DNA from: Acidobacteriota bacterium
GTDB lineage: Bacteria > Acidobacteriota > Terriglobia > Terriglobales > Acidobacteriaceae
Assembly (NCBI GenBank): GCA_021780315.1
Contig: JAJXYY010000026.1
Coordinates: 62,001 to 126,000, forward strand
Length of the DNA stretch: 64,000 nucleotides
Reading direction: 5' to 3'
The position numbers and the translations under genes were made by a program. Under the pieces are notes generated by a model, which searched no databases, had not been told where the DNA came from, and saw nothing but the letters and a program-made list of their open reading frames with translations. Positions 11,493 through 19,671 of this stretch are shown here, in pieces. Position 1 is the first letter of the stretch. The number at the start of each line of letters is the position of its first letter.

Positions 11493-12217
11493 CAGCCAGG
11501 CCTCTGCTGTAGCAGATCGAAGAACCCGTGCTCAATCTCTGCCAACTGTGCCGCAACGCCTAACTCGACTCTTCCCAGCCTGGTCGACAACACACACTCC
11601 CCGGGTGCTAAGGACGTATCGCCCACCACGGACACACTCTCATCCATATCCAACCGTAGAGCAGCAGTCCACCCCTGCTCCGTCCCTTCTGGCACGCGCA
11701 CTACCGTTCCACTCTCATCCGCAACTTTACCTAAGGCTACCCGCACCGTTGCCTGCAGAAGCATCGGATCAAGGCTGCTCTCCCTGTGCAGCACTCTGGC
11801 CGCAATCGCCAGCGATAGCTTCACCACCTCTACCTCAACCATTGCAAAGTATCGTTCGCGATCAAGACGGAATCGATCACAAGCCTCTCGTACCGCACCT
11901 TGTGCACGCAATATCTCCTGTTGCAGGCTCCGCTCATACTCCTCGCGCACACCAGCTAACTCCAGTGCATGTTCAGCGTGCAACTCGTCCACCAACTGCG
12001 GCCGCAGTCGATTCAACTCCGAGTTCAATTGCGCGACCTTCGCCTCCAGCAGCGCCTTGGCCTGCACCTCCACTCCTGCAGCCACTCGCTTCACGCCACA
12101 ATCCACCTGCTCAAACTGCAGGCGCCTCACCTGGCCTGGCAGCTGGCCTACCAGCAACGGTGCCCGGACTGAACCTGGTTCGCCAGCCTCATCTCGTATC
12201 TCAGACAGAGAGTTCAT
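11492..12217 (-). CDS. fliH: Flagellar export stator protein FliH
   Basis: FliH is the peripheral stalk that links FliI to FliN in the C-ring. The 241-residue product has a long Glu/Ala/Arg-rich helical middle (about residues 45-120) and a C-terminal part resembling V/F-type ATPase E/delta subunits (VEVEVVKLSLAIAARVLHRE, then LAPGECVLSTRLGRVELGV). The ATG at 12217 has GGAGG six bases upstream, within the end of fliG, and overlaps fliG by 17 bases; the ATG at 12223 is less suitable. Confidence 0.9.
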   Translation of the reverse strand: MNSLSEIRDEAGEPGSVRAPLLVGQLPGQVRRLQFEQVDCGVKRVAAGVEVQAKALLEAKVAQLNSELNRLRPQLVDELHAEHALELAGVREEYERSLQQEILRAQGAVREACDRFRLDRERYFAMVEVEVVKLSLAIAARVLHRESSLDPMLLQATVRVALGKVADESGTVVRVPEGTEQGWTAALRLDMDESVSVVGDTSLAPGECVLSTRLGRVELGVAAQLAEIEHGFFDLLQQRPG

Positions 12218-15998: not shown

Positions 15999-16355
15999 CT
16001 ACTTCGCCTCCGCATGGATCGCGCTCATCACGTTCGCAAACTGATGCTTCATCAACTCCACCCCCAGCCGAAACTGCAACTGGCTCTTCGCCAACTGCAT
16101 CCCCTCCCGGTCCATGGATACGTTGTTCCCGTCCGGCCGCGCCACCAGGCCATCCACCTCCTGCACCGCGGGCGAAGTCACTTCGCCTGCACTAAAACTC
16201 AGCTGTTTCGTCAACTCCTGCTCAAAGTCGAACCCTTGCGTCCGATACCCCGGCGTATCCACGTTCGCCATATTGGCAGCCGTCAACTTCATCTGGTCGC
16301 TGGTCAGATCCAGATATCGATTGAGAGCATCGCTCATGCCCGACATCACCTGCAT
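15999..16355 (-). CDS. flgB: Flagellar proximal rod protein FlgB
   Basis: FlgB is a rod subunit and the first gene of the flagellar cluster. The 118-residue protein has LTSDQMKLTAANMANVDTPG and a C-terminal VELMKHQFANVMSAIHAEAK. The start at 16355 is preceded by GGAGGTGAGG, an excellent binding site, and gives the family length; the in-frame extension upstream runs through the promoter and terminator region and is not coding. A sigma-54 type promoter lies about 30 bases upstream. Confidence 0.95.
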   Translation of the reverse strand: MQVMSGMSDALNRYLDLTSDQMKLTAANMANVDTPGYRTQGFDFEQELTKQLSFSAGEVTSPAVQEVDGLVARPDGNNVSMDREGMQLAKSQLQFRLGVELMKHQFANVMSAIHAEAK

Positions 16356-16381
16356 CGCCTCACCTCCACGAACTCCAACGA

Positions 16382-16397
16382 TGCAGTCCAATGGCCA
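16382..16397 (-). promoter_or_regulatory. Sigma-54 (RpoN) promoter of the flgB operon
   Basis: On the minus strand the sequence is TGGCCATTGGACTGCA. GG and GC are ten bases apart, as in the consensus TGGCACG-N4-TTGCA, and 8 of the 12 consensus positions agree, including the GG and GC doublets. The predicted transcription start is near 16,371, leaving a short leader that holds the GGAGGTGAGG site of flgB. A sigma-54 activator gene lies directly upstream, which supports the assignment. Confidence 0.75.
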
Positions 16398-16403
16398 AAT
16401 AAA

Positions 16404-16425
16404 AGCGCCCTCAGGTGAGAGCGCT
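16404..16425 (-). terminator. Intrinsic terminator after the sigma-54 activator gene
   Basis: AGCGCCCTC (16404-16412) and GAGAGCGCT (16417-16425) form a nine-position stem with one mismatch and a four-base loop. On the minus strand it is followed by TTTTATTT. It stands between the regulatory genes and the sigma-54 promoter of flgB, so it isolates the flagellar operon from read-through. Confidence 0.75.
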
Positions 16426-16494
16426 CTTAGAAGCAAGACAGAAAACCTCGTTACCAACACCATCCACAAGACCTGCACTCCAAGCCACGCTCTC

Positions 16495-17796
16495 TCACCC
16501 CTGCGTCACCCTGCCAAACCGTATATGGCTCACCCCAATCTCCGGCTGCTCACCACACAGAATCGCCCCACGCTCCAGCACATGCATCAACTCGCGAACA
16601 TTCCCCGGCCAACCATACTGCCGCAAGAGCGGCATCGTCTCTCCAGCCAACTGCTTGCGCGGCGTCTCCTTTCCCATCTGTTCCAGAAAATGCTCCGCCA
16701 GCAGCGGTATATCGTCCACCCGCATCCGCAGTGCCGGCACCTCCACCGGAAACACCGCCAACCGGTGATACAGATCCAGACGAAACGCACGCTCTTCTGC
16801 TCGCTGCTCCAGCGGCTGGTGGGTCGCCGCAATCACCCGTACATCCACGCGCACCGTCTCGTTGTCGCCCACGCGCTGCAACTCCCCGCTCTCCAAAAAC
16901 CGGAGCATCTTCGCCTGTAGTGCCAACGGCATCTCGCCAATCTCATCCAGAAACAACGTGCCACCATGGGCCGCTTCAATCCGTCCGGTCCTCGACTGCA
17001 CCGCTCCAGTAAACGCGCCGCGCGTATGCCCAAACAGCTCCGCCTCCAGCAACGTCTCCGGTATCGCCGCGCAGTTCAACACCGCAAACGCCTTCGCCGA
17101 GCGGCTGCTCAGCCGATGCACCGCACGCGCCACCACCTCCTTGCCCGTACCCGTCTCACCTTCAATCAGCACCGTCGTCGAACGCGGTGCCACCAGCCGA
17201 ATCATCCTTCCCAACTCCAGCATCCGGCTGCTCATCCCCACCATCTCCGGCAGCGCCGTACTCATCGCAACCCCAGCACCGTCCGCTCGCTCCAACACAC
17301 TCTCGCGCAAGGCAGTTCGTCCCACTCGCGACTCCGTCTTGCCCCATGTCGCAGACGGTACGCCCCCTGCCGGAATCACTGTGGGAGCCGCCGCCCACAC
17401 CGCCGTATCATTCATCCCGGACAACGAGCCTACTGGCGCATCCTGAGCTTCCCGCAGTGCATGCAGCAACTCATTCCGCCGCGGACTCCGAGCACCACCT
17501 GCCTCCATCACGCCATCCACCCGCAGCAACTCCATCCCCGGATAAAGCAACCGCATCTGCCCGGCAAACTCCCCTACTTCCAGATCCGGCAACCAGCTAT
17601 CCACCAGTAGCGCCTCCGCCCGGCGATCTTCCAGAAACGCCATCGCCTCAGCCCCGCCCACGGCCTCCCGCACCTGCCAGCGAAGTCCCAGCAACACCCG
17701 CCGCAACCGCTCTCGCAAGCCAGCATCTGCGCTCGCCAGCACCACTGTCCGTGACGCAACCGCATCCAACACTCCCGCACTCGCACTTCCGCTCAT
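16495..17796 (-). CDS. Sigma-54 activator with degenerate receiver, no DNA-binding domain
   Basis: A 433-residue bacterial enhancer-binding protein. Residues 15-115 resemble a receiver domain: D66 in LLVDSWLPDLE is the likely phospho-acceptor, but the usual acidic pair and the conserved Lys are not evident. The AAA+ domain (about 183-415) is complete: Walker A GETGTGKE 213-220, GAFTGA 260-265 for sigma-54 contact, Walker B FLDEIGEMPL, and GWPGNVREL. Only about 25 residues follow, so the Fis-type helix-turn-helix is absent, as in Helicobacter FlgR. The start overlaps the upstream gene (ATGA). It lies next to flgB, whose promoter looks sigma-54 dependent, so a flagellar role is likely (inference). 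Confidence 0.88.
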   Translation of the reverse strand: MSGSASAGVLDAVASRTVVLASADAGLRERLRRVLLGLRWQVREAVGGAEAMAFLEDRRAEALLVDSWLPDLEVGEFAGQMRLLYPGMELLRVDGVMEAGGARSPRRNELLHALREAQDAPVGSLSGMNDTAVWAAAPTVIPAGGVPSATWGKTESRVGRTALRESVLERADGAGVAMSTALPEMVGMSSRMLELGRMIRLVAPRSTTVLIEGETGTGKEVVARAVHRLSSRSAKAFAVLNCAAIPETLLEAELFGHTRGAFTGAVQSRTGRIEAAHGGTLFLDEIGEMPLALQAKMLRFLESGELQRVGDNETVRVDVRVIAATHQPLEQRAEERAFRLDLYHRLAVFPVEVPALRMRVDDIPLLAEHFLEQMGKETPRKQLAGETMPLLRQYGWPGNVRELMHVLERGAILCGEQPEIGVSHIRFGRVTQG

Positions 17797-18065
17797 TTGT
17801 AGCTCCCACTCTCTCGCACATCCGGTTGCATCGCATCTTGGATCGACATCGCCTGCCGAACTACATCACGCATAGACGCCACTGCCCCATTCAGACGAAG
17901 ACACTCGTCCAGTCCAGCCCGCACAGCTTCCCGCATCGCCTCTGGTTCATCGCGCAGCATCCCCAGTTCCAGGCGGCAGCGCAACACCGTCAGCGGCTGG
18001 CACATCTCGTGCAGCACATGGTCCATCTTCGCCACTACATCGCTCGACCTCTTCGCAGTATTCAT
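17793..18065 (-). CDS. Stand-alone histidine phosphoacceptor (DHp) protein
   Basis: The 90-residue protein contains only a histidine-kinase dimerisation/phosphoacceptor helix pair. The H-box reads HEMCQPLTVLRCRLELG with His19 followed by Glu and QPL, the pattern of NtrB-like kinases, and a second helix follows (AVRAGLDECLRLNGAVASMR). There is no sensor domain and no ATPase domain, and none is present in the neighbouring frames. It lies between two response-regulator genes, four bases overlapping the sigma-54 activator and three bases after the OmpR-type gene. A phosphotransfer or phosphatase role between the two regulators is inferred. No start problem: ATG at 18065. Confidence 0.75.
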   Translation of the reverse strand: MNTAKRSSDVVAKMDHVLHEMCQPLTVLRCRLELGMLRDEPEAMREAVRAGLDECLRLNGAVASMRDVVRQAMSIQDAMQPDVRESGSYK

Positions 18066-18068
18066 CCC

Positions 18069-18827
18069 TCACGCCTGGACCAGCGCAGACTGGGAATACC
18101 CATCCAGCAGACCGTATCTACATCCACCAACGCCCAGCTTCTTTACCCCGCCCATCTGGTAGCCTTCTCCGCGCACCGTCTCAATCACCTGGTAGCTCAC
18201 CTCGCCCTTCGGCAGCGCAGCGCCTAGCTTCCGCCGCAGGTAGTTGATGTACACATCCACTACATTCGTCCCCGCATCCGGAGACATCTGCCAAACCTCT
18301 CGCAGCAACTCGCTGCGGCTGCAGCACCGTCCCCGTCGCTGCATCAGGAACTCCAGCAGACTGAACTCCTTGACCGTCAACTCCACCACCTGTCCGCTCC
18401 GCCGCACCGTCCGCTCCATCCGGTTCATCTCCACCGAGCCATGCCGCAACACCGGGTCCGCATACATCTCTCGCCGCCGCAGCAACGCACGGCATCGCGC
18501 CGTCAACTCATGAAAGCTGAACGGCTTCAGCAGGCAATCATCCGCGCCCAGATTCAAACACCGCACCCGCTCCTCCACCTTGCTTCGTCCCGTCAGTACT
18601 AGCACCGCCGTGCCATCCATACGACCCCGCATCTCCTCCAGTACCTCCATCCCGTCCTTCCGTGGCAGACTCAGATCCAGCACGATCAGATCCGGCTGGT
18701 CGGCCTGCGCCTGCCGCAGTCCAGCCTCGCCATCGCCCACCCAATTCACGTCATGCCCCTCCAGCGTCAAACCCTTTTGCAGAAACAACCCCAAGGCCGC
18801 ATCGTCTTCAATAATCAAAACCTGCAT
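18069..18827 (-). CDS. OmpR/PhoB-type response regulator
   Basis: The 252-residue protein has a complete receiver domain (residues 1-115: IIEDD at the acidic pocket, LDLSLPRKDG with the phospho-Asp, LVLTGRS, and LLKPFSFHEL with the conserved Lys) and a winged-helix DNA-binding domain (about 125-225: LTVKEFSLLEFLMQRRG, NVVDVYINYLRRKLG, VRGEGY). About 22 extra residues follow the usual end. GAGGAG lies shortly before the ATG. It heads the three-gene regulatory unit upstream of the flagellar operon and is divergent from lexA. No partner sensor kinase is next to it. Confidence 0.92.
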   Translation of the reverse strand: MQVLIIEDDAALGLFLQKGLTLEGHDVNWVGDGEAGLRQAQADQPDLIVLDLSLPRKDGMEVLEEMRGRMDGTAVLVLTGRSKVEERVRCLNLGADDCLLKPFSFHELTARCRALLRRREMYADPVLRHGSVEMNRMERTVRRSGQVVELTVKEFSLLEFLMQRRGRCCSRSELLREVWQMSPDAGTNVVDVYINYLRRKLGAALPKGEVSYQVIETVRGEGYQMGGVKKLGVGGCRYGLLDGYSQSALVQA

Positions 18828-19025
18828 CAGCTCTCCTCGTTTCTCTTCACTACAGTCCGGTCCCGGGAACCATCCGGAAGTTACCGCTGCGGTGTCGTGG
18901 TATTACCTTGGGTCATCCATTAGAAGCAAGCAAGCAAAAATGTGCCGGGGTTTACAACGCAATTCCAATTTGGGAATCATGCCCCGTCGCCCTCGTACCC
19001 ACCTCATTACGTGTTAACCGAAAAA
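18828..19025. other. Divergent intergenic region between response regulator and lexA
   Basis: No gene was found. Two near-palindromes are visible: GGTCCCGGGAACC (around 18,871) and ATTCCAATTTGGGAAT (around 18,963), either of which could be an operator for the response-regulator operon. A short run of GCAA repeats lies near 18,927. None is assigned to a known regulator. Confidence 0.35.
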
Positions 19026-19065: not shown

Positions 19066-19671
19066 ATGGCTATCACACGACGGCAAAAAGAGGTCATCGA
19101 CTTTCTCTCCGGCTTCACTCAGAAGAACGGCTACTCCCCTTCTTACGAAGAGATCGCCGCCGGTCTCGGCCTCAGTTCCCTCGCCACCGTCCACAAACAC
19201 ATCACCAACCTGCAAAACAAGGGCTTGCTGCAACGCGCTCACAACCGCAGCCGCTCCATCGACGTCCTGCCAGCTCGTTCCAGCAGAAAAGGGGCCGACC
19301 GCCTCCCGCTCCTCGGCCGCATCGCCGCAGGCCAGCCCGTCGAAGCCATCGAGACAGCCGAGAGCATCTCCTTGTCAGACATCATTGGCAACCGCGAAGT
19401 CTTCGCCCTTGAAGTCCGTGGCGACTCCATGCGCGACGAGCACATCGTCTCCGGAGACTACGTCCTCGTCGAGCGCACCCACACCGCCCGCGAGGGAGAG
19501 ATCATCGTCGCCCTCATCGACGGTGCCGACGCCACCCTCAAGCGTTTCTATCGTGAGGGCTCCATGATCCGCCTCCAACCCTCCAATACCGAGATGGCTC
19601 CCATCTACGCGCCTGCCGCCAACGTCAGCATTCAGGGCAAAGTCCTCGGCGTCCTGCGCAAATACGCCTGA
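19066..19671 (+). CDS. lexA: SOS repressor LexA
   Basis: LexA represses SOS genes and cleaves itself when RecA is activated. The 201-residue protein has the N-terminal winged helix (RRQKEVIDFLSGFTQKNGYS, PSYEEIAAGLGL, ATVHKHITNL), the Ala-Gly cleavage site in GRIAAGQPVEA, the catalytic Ser in VRGDSM, and the catalytic Lys in ATLKRF. Length is normal. No Shine-Dalgarno sequence precedes the ATG, and the -10 element is so close that the message may be leaderless. uvrA and uvrB, typical targets elsewhere, also lie in this window but show no matching box. Confidence 0.97.
   Translation: MAITRRQKEVIDFLSGFTQKNGYSPSYEEIAAGLGLSSLATVHKHITNLQNKGLLQRAHNRSRSIDVLPARSSRKGADRLPLLGRIAAGQPVEAIETAESISLSDIIGNREVFALEVRGDSMRDEHIVSGDYVLVERTHTAREGEIIVALIDGADATLKRFYREGSMIRLQPSNTEMAPIYAPAANVSIQGKVLGVLRKYA

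Follow-up and report, generated by a model that had tools for sequence, protein, structure and literature searches.

Locus layout and the two regulators

We analysed a 64,000-nucleotide stretch of an Acidobacteriota bacterium genome (GCA_021780315.1, contig JAJXYY010000026.1, positions 62,001 to 126,000; hereafter the window) for a row of regulatory genes in a soil acidobacterium whose flagellar genes lie beside it. The row consists of three minus-strand open reading frames (ORFs), encoding an OmpR-type response regulator, a protein of 90 residues and a sigma-54 activator. The first two ORFs are spaced 3 nt apart and the second overlaps the third by 4 nt. An earlier note on this DNA had called them a kinase-less three-part switch for the flagellar genes, and the ORFs and Pfam agree with it on the gene coordinates and types. 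Its statement that no histidine-kinase ATPase domain is present also holds, as Pfam found HATPase_c in none of the three window proteins. Both rpoN and FliG are present in the window genome. Rfam, at gathering thresholds, gave no match between window positions 12000 and 22000.

Table 1. Coordinates of the regulatory unit and its neighbours in the window.
Feature	Positions	Strand	Evidence
OmpR/PhoB-type response regulator, 252 aa	18069..18827	-	Pfam Response_reg 9e-26, Trans_reg_C 5e-25
90-aa DHp-only protein, predicted phospho-acceptor His19 (HEMCQPLT)	17793..18065	-	HisKA 1.5e-4, hairpin model, dN/dS, invariant residues
HTH-less sigma-54 activator, 433 aa	16495..17796	-	Sigma54_activat 1e-67, 24-row alignment, structure model
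Terminator-like 13-bp hairpin, T-rich 3' side	16400..16429	-	12/12 aligned loci, one compensated pair
Sigma-54-like -24/-12 element TGGCCATTGGACTGCAT before flgB	16381..16397	-	TGGN9TGC in 25/31 flgB-upstream regions; alignments
flgB, first gene of the flagellar operon, likely ATG 16355	15999..16355	-	ORF and relatives
Direct repeat GGTAAT...GGTAAC 5' of the OmpR-type gene, candidate autoregulatory site	18880..18907	-	11/47 regions
lexA, divergent neighbour, landmark outside the switch	19066..19671	+	Within ~350 nt of the OmpR gene in 21/43 named loci

The OmpR-type protein belongs to the OmpR/PhoB family, combining a winged helix with a receiver that is canonical when aligned with relatives (D8, D9, D51, T79 and K101). 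Aligned relatives likewise keep both acids, Asp51, Thr79 and Lys101 in their OmpR receivers, the exceptions being an Asp-Glu pair in locus L049, Ser79 in L043, L047 and L054, and L032, which is a fragment.

The activator is built differently. Besides the sigma-54 domain Pfam listed an AAA lid, no helix-turn-helix (HTH), and Response_reg at trace level only (E = 0.2). The protein consists of a truncated pseudo-receiver, an AAA+ domain with GAFTGA and a short tail, the GAFTGA and tail being shared by 24 aligned activators. Asp24 and Asp66 of the receiver are kept in 24/24 rows, while the first of the two paired acids, the Thr/Ser and the Lys are lost; deeper rows have lost both acids of the pair. 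In the structure model the receiver has four strands and beta-5 is missing (residues 11-120 at 69-92 per ten-residue block on the pLDDT confidence scale, against a mean of 59.7 for the model, which was excluded from the fold search). The activator is thus FlgR-like in having an AAA+ GAFTGA domain and no C-terminal HTH, but it has no phosphorylatable receiver. The earlier note had correctly described the lack of a DNA-binding HTH and had overlooked the degraded receiver. Because the activator carries only a pseudo-receiver, the shuttling of phosphate between the two regulators that the note proposed is unlikely, even with Asp66 in place.

The small histidine hairpin

Above noise, the 90-residue protein matched HisKA alone in Pfam (residues 16-70; 22.2 bits, short of the 26.9 gathering score). 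Its predicted structure is a two-helix hairpin (pLDDT 85.6), and H19, Q23, P24, T26 and R66 are invariant in 16/16 aligned sequences. The earlier note was right that the protein is a dimerisation and histidine phosphotransfer (DHp) domain only, with His19. Sequence comparison adds that it is truncated with respect to a related DHp protein whose ATPase domain is dead. Pfam listings at E 0.01 for the A1 and A2 members contained only HisKA, HisKA_3, HATPase_c and T3SS_needle_E, with HisKA matched in 8/16 short members. No classical Hpt match was listed for the DHp protein. The HATPase_c domain of a HisKA kinase, with its N, G1 and G2 boxes, is absent, and these boxes are eroded in 38 long relatives. 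Of two further features of ChpT/Spo0B-type proteins, the conserved phospho-acceptor His in a DHp hairpin is present, and the degenerate ATPase-like domain behind it is absent from the window protein and present in longer relatives.

Conservation of His19 had been put forward in the earlier note as a check, and the His was found in 94/94 distinct DHp cores (53 short, 41 long), a count from loci found with His-bearing queries, four of which entered through a His-demanding pattern, and in which the His-bearing motif was chosen where there were several QP motifs. Four DHp proteins reached through the activator rather than a DHp query have the His in 4/4 cases. The residue after the His was acidic in only 46/94 cores (35/53 short, 11/41 long), compared with 18/19 control kinases with intact ATPase motifs from the same fetched loci. 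Position +4 is Gln in the DHp cores, as set by the search pattern, and Asn, Thr or Ser in the 19 control kinases. Kinases and HisKA phosphatases both use an acid after the His, which phosphotransferases can do without, as the HRxxN motif of PhyT shows. Since the His is always kept while the neighbouring acid varies, phosphotransfer of the kind known from Spo0B, ChpT and PhyT fits these proteins better than kinase or phosphatase activity.

DHp domains nevertheless carry the phosphatase activity of many kinases. The DHp-only protein could be a phosphatase or phosphate sink that turns the OmpR-type protein off, the donor being acetyl phosphate or an unlinked kinase. This would suit the linked kinases of two relatives (L247 and L251), which are receiver-less and leave a forward relay unneeded there, as well as the 29 loci described below that keep the OmpR gene without a DHp gene. 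The frequent lack of the acid that HisKA phosphatases have after the His and the Gln at +4 both speak against it, and we consider this explanation unlikely.

The small gene is also maintained. Between the window and its nearest relative, L095, the ratio of nonsynonymous to synonymous substitution rates (dN/dS) was 0.034 over 62 codons. Among the 40 closest pairs listed, dN was 0 in three, dN/dS was 0.019-0.219 in 36, and a single pair (L110/L116) reached 0.51. These values indicate that the gene is kept under purifying selection, and a decaying pseudogene was rejected on the same dN/dS values. Sequencing truncation was rejected too, the same short gene occurring in 50/69 rows of the first tree. 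That the protein is a functionless, decaying remnant of a lost kinase would agree with other lineages managing without a DHp protein. Low dN/dS, retention across a clade of 49 rows and at least three DHp-only origins (see below) make this very improbable, and it is strongly disfavoured.

Gene order and reduction states

The 90-residue protein found matches in 47/200 genomes of the family. In the best matches a short frame stood next to genes for an OmpR-type regulator and the same activator; the weaker ones included longer proteins and ordinary kinases. Scanning named genomes yielded 43 loci, titled Acidobacteria, Acidobacteriota, Acidobacteriaceae, Acidobacteriales, Granulicella, Edaphobacter or Terriglobus, and one 'bacterium'. 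The two sets overlap (L096=L031, L101=L035, L102=L032, L109=L036, L117=L038, L120=L040 and L130=L043). The gene order search that the earlier note had called for found OmpR-DHp-activator complete in 38/43 named loci. The other five comprise three that run into a contig end (L127, L132 and L133), L113 with no upstream OmpR gene, and L115 with no activator (OmpR-DHp-fliA). Downstream, the next gene was flgB or flgC in 23 and fliA in 15, and in 5 the sequence ended too early. The kinase ATPase profile had no match at E 1e-5 in the frames between the OmpR gene and flgB/fliA of the 43 loci. In L101, L105, L106, L107, L109 and L130, lexA lies 1.2-6.5 kb off, with the order of the three genes intact.

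Deep relatives from several families of the class have a longer arrangement: an OmpR gene, a DHp gene with a degenerate ATPase domain, an HTH-less activator, a full-length soluble kinase, an HTH-bearing activator and then the flagellar operon. This five-gene state was found in L056, L059, L062, L064, L066, L168, L169, L170, L174, L175, L177, L182 and L184, with inserted extra genes in L059 and L175 and with flgC as the first flagellar match in L175. In L064, Pfam assigned PAS, HisKA and HATPase_c to the downstream kinase, and a receiver and HTH_8 to the next activator; we label such pairs FleS/FleR-like by position and domains. The gene after OmpR in deep relatives encodes 213-337 aa, a DHp hairpin followed by a domain alignable to the ATPase domains of kinases, and the long-form profile aligns along whole kinases of known structure. 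HisKA was matched in 16/16 long-form members and HATPase_c in 1/16. Across 38 long proteins the G2 box is present in none and both N-box Asn in two. This combination of DHp and decayed ATPase domain supports a Spo0B-like origin, Spo0B being the comparison drawn in the earlier note. The note had also held that relatives with a full-length kinase at this place would reveal truncation, and this was half borne out: deep relatives do have a full-length kinase, two genes downstream, while the place of the DHp gene itself holds a longer, degenerate pseudokinase.

In the lineage of the window (Granulicella/Edaphobacter/Terriglobus) the locus has neither the kinase/FleR pair nor the dead ATPase domain. 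FleS/FleR-like queries against the window genome returned generic relatives only, the best-scoring kinases at 33-34% and activators at 40-42% identity. In the tree of OmpR and activator sequences, 49 DHp-only rows formed one clade (Shimodaira-Hasegawa-like approximate likelihood-ratio test, SH-aLRT, 85) adjoining the long-form loci L049 and L050. In L050, flgB directly follows the activator and no FleS/FleR is present, an intermediate state; rpoN had no match in the genome of this locus (G052, 70% complete). L048 is a second DHp-only origin and L251 a third. An A2 profile search of the class returned mostly ordinary kinases (373/399 genomes at E 1e-6); the 30 best loci were examined and 20 contexts fetched, a sample that yields no frequency.

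The activator pseudo-receiver provided a search independent of the DHp protein, with 118 matches listed at E<=4.7e-16 and then a gap to 1.2e-11. Forty of the 118 loci were fetched, mostly from genomes whose locus was not yet in hand. Four had a DHp gene, 29 had OmpR and activator genes with no DHp gene between them, and seven had no OmpR match in the script, though one of these (L256) does show an OmpR gene. Here 'no DHp' means no DHp or HPT profile match in frames of at least 60 aa, with intergenic gaps of up to 308 nt. All 29 DHp-less loci keep OmpR Asp51 and Lys101, and four of them have a broken acidic pair, leaving 25/29 canonical. In L239, L240, L246 and L258 the order is activator-FleS-FleR-flgB with no adjoining OmpR-DHp pair; their genomes (G127, G028, G147 and G010) have such a pair elsewhere (L061, L060, L054 and L065, respectively).

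On the tree the DHp-only state requires at least three changes and the DHp-less state at least four, indicating that the small protein is no accident and is not found everywhere. Trees were midpoint-rooted with SH-aLRT as the only support, and L048, L152, L251 and L257 have long branches. Identical sequences were dropped from trees and counts, and the change-counting tree also omits 13 listed near-copies. The direction, loss rather than gain, would follow from the deep relatives. With relatives that have five genes, or two and no DHp gene, the unit is not the irreducible three-part switch that had been supposed.

Promoter elements, proposed mechanism and meaning

The sigma-54-like element of the window ends 25 nt short of the likely ATG of flgB. 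Before flgB, TGGN9TGC occurred in 25/31 distinct regions, compared with a mean of 2.40 and a maximum of 7 in dinucleotide shuffles; before fliA it occurred in 11/15 (shuffles mean 1.34, max 4). The stricter TGGN9TGC[AT] was found in 25/31 flgB regions (mean 1.25, max 5) and 3/15 fliA regions (mean 0.68, max 3). TGGN9TGC was picked after a weighted consensus scan had been seen, nine loci with no recognised downstream gene were dropped, and related sequences are not independent, so that counts against shuffles overstate significance. The window's own site is missing from the count because the long FlgB frame extends past it; it is visible in the consensus scan and alignments. Support for the flgB site is comparative, and it agrees with the earlier placement of the unit directly before a sigma-54 promoter of the flagellar operon. 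In the window the hairpin stops 2 nt before the -24 element, the same arrangement being present in all 12 aligned loci, which had been selected as near relatives carrying the motif. It is probably the terminator of the regulator operon, in which case flgB would rely on its own promoter.

A GGTAA-GGTAA repeat precedes the OmpR gene in 11/47 regions, all in one subclade (shuffled mean 0.14); it was picked once the alignment had been seen. Before flgB or fliA this repeat was found in 0/46 regions, a search for a single motif that proves no site either way. The suggestion that the OmpR-type protein supplies the activator's DNA contact at flgB thus gained no support from this one motif.

Flagella may not be the only output. 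Of the named genomes tested, FliG was found in 5/14 of the fliA type, two of the 14 being repeats of G188 and G116, and in 4/4 of the flgB type, both counts being made regardless of genome completeness. The unit is present and FliG was not found in G116 and G188 (both 100% complete) and G095 (99%). The fliA-type loci include L040/L120 and L043/L130, in which the unit stands beside fliA in FliG-less genomes (G116 and G188). In L047 (10519-12803, plus strand; G095) the activator is followed, by eye, by a FlgB-like start joined to a FlgK-like rest and then by a FlgL-like gene. That FliG-less genomes keep the unit with fliA suggests a sigma-28 role outside flagella. The unit might then control sigma-28 (FliA) and other sigma-54 promoters, with flagella as one output. 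Its position before fliA rather than flgB in over a third of named loci, the two complete genomes just mentioned and a full-consensus TGGCACGCAGGTTGCAT site before fliA in L040 are in line with this. By contrast, flgB or flgC follows in the larger group of named loci and in many deep relatives, and TGGN9TGC[AT] shows no clear enrichment before fliA. We regard this explanation, which is compatible with the reading preferred below, as rather unlikely, the best placed of the alternatives. Because the unit precedes fliA in sister lineages and persists in FliG-less genomes, its output may extend beyond flagella, as sigma-54 control of either flgB or sigma-28.

The reading we prefer, to which we give just under an even chance, is that the row combines a reduced, kinase-derived phosphotransfer module serving the OmpR-type protein with an FlgR-like activator. 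A soluble histidine kinase would have eroded stepwise, to a DHp hairpin with a dead ATPase domain and then to the bare hairpin of the 90-residue protein. The latter would serve the adjoining regulator as a histidine phosphotransfer dimer, with a phosphoryl group exchanged between OmpR Asp51 and a receiver that belongs to an unlinked kinase or hybrid kinase. Expression of the unit may be under the control of the OmpR-type regulator, probably via the repeat in front of its own gene. The HTH-less activator would take no phosphate and, with no DNA binding of its own, would work like Helicobacter FlgR on the sigma-54 promoter of flgB, or of fliA in sister lineages.

Partners and donors can be partly traced. 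Twenty-two of 91 loci have an OmpR-DHp pair with no activator within 2.5 kb (in L059 and L148 the activator lies further on, and in L132 the contig ends), making the OmpR-type protein the likely partner of the DHp protein, with L113 as counter-example. A kinase gene lies directly upstream of OmpR in L056, L247 and L251, the L056 kinase having PAS, HisKA, HATPase_c and a receiver in Pfam and the other two being read as receiver-less. The window genome has at least one hybrid kinase with two receivers, and behind its gene come those for a lone receiver and for a small protein that by eye looks Hpt-like. This row (L188, 1874-4662, plus strand), unlinked to the flagella, is a candidate donor system.

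Several results weigh against the preferred reading or call for care. The 29 of 40 further loci with no DHp gene, 25 of them with a canonical OmpR receiver, indicate that the DHp protein is dispensable elsewhere and that the OmpR-type protein can be served otherwise. Two of the three linked kinases having no receiver, direct OmpR phosphorylation is possible. For the window genome no phosphodonor could be named. Foldseek gave no match for the hairpin model at E 0.001 or better, designed hairpins outranking kinase DHp domains, and the ChpT- and Spo0B-specific Pfam families had no match. The weighted sigma-54 scan scored the window site at p 0.08, alone within chance, and reached p<=0.05 in only 12/50 regions. 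Finally, L113 (4758-7914, plus strand) has DHp-activator-fliA and no OmpR gene in 4.7 kb upstream; it is the only named locus with DHp but not OmpR where the contig would show it, and it counts against the OmpR-type protein as sole partner. L113 would also suit a non-catalytic adaptor or dimeriser that binds the OmpR-type protein or the activator and in which the His is structural, as would the 4-nt overlap with the activator gene and the small two-helix build. Invariance of the His amid varying neighbours is however the mark of a phospho-acceptor, and we place the adaptor slightly below the phosphatase in likelihood.

ChpT has an ATPase-like domain, and CtrA is an OmpR-family regulator. In the CckA-ChpT-CtrA system ChpT is a histidine phosphotransferase that feeds the flagella-controlling CtrA (PMC3692519); in a similar manner, the PAS hybrid kinase adjoins the OmpR-DHp pair in L056. 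ChpT, at 204 aa in the strain of that paper, is longer than the window protein, and the window has no linked kinase, no ChpT Pfam match and an added HTH-less sigma-54 activator. PhyT of Sphingomonas is a tested phosphotransferase with a DHp domain, a degenerated ATPase domain and an HRxxN motif (PMC5898713). It resembles the present proteins in that degenerated domain (here in the long relatives), in a non-acidic residue after the His and in being coded at a response regulator's locus. It differs in being membrane-anchored with a periplasmic region and in feeding PhyR, whereas the window protein has neither such a region nor an ATPase domain and neighbours an OmpR-type gene. Spo0B is an intermediate histidine phosphotransferase hard to separate from kinases by sequence (PMC6136694), as the DHp protein here would be. 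Spo0B acts in sporulation, not flagella, and our locus has no Spo0F-like gene and no SPOB Pfam match. Helicobacter FlgS/FlgR shares a flagellar sigma-54 activator lacking a DNA-binding domain and a soluble kinase, but FlgR has a working receiver phosphorylated by FlgS (PMC3930126), in contrast to the pseudo-receiver and the kinase-free locus here. Pseudomonas FleS/FleR and Vibrio FlrB/FlrC (PMC3930126) have the domain make-up of the pair that precedes flgB in deep relatives, a likeness of domains. The locus lacks that pair in the window's lineage, and the OmpR-DHp-activator unit is an addition. Relative to known phosphotransferases and FlgR-like activators, what is new at the sequence level is that the ATPase domain is wholly lost and several stages of reduction are visible. 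A literature search found no description of such an Acidobacteriota flagellar control system, though most subscription journals lay outside it, so this is no proof.

The locus is, as judged from the sequences, real, conserved and selected; its function is what we infer. Tentatively, and with somewhat less confidence than in the reading as a whole, ~80 residues of bare DHp hairpin, lacking a sensor, an ATPase domain and any remnant of one, may make a complete, working phosphotransfer protein that serves an OmpR-type regulator controlling flagella and sigma-28. Kinase erosion would have led to it at least three times independently, in an Acidobacteriota flagellar control locus of which our literature search found no description. 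Phosphotransferases of the Spo0B, ChpT and PhyT kind are regarded as decayed kinases, and a single locus here presents a pseudokinase, a bare DHp hairpin and nothing. This series makes it testable how small a functional phosphotransfer protein can be and what frees a regulator from needing one. For these Acidobacteriota, it suggests possible flagellar control by an HTH-less sigma-54 activator beside an OmpR-type regulator.

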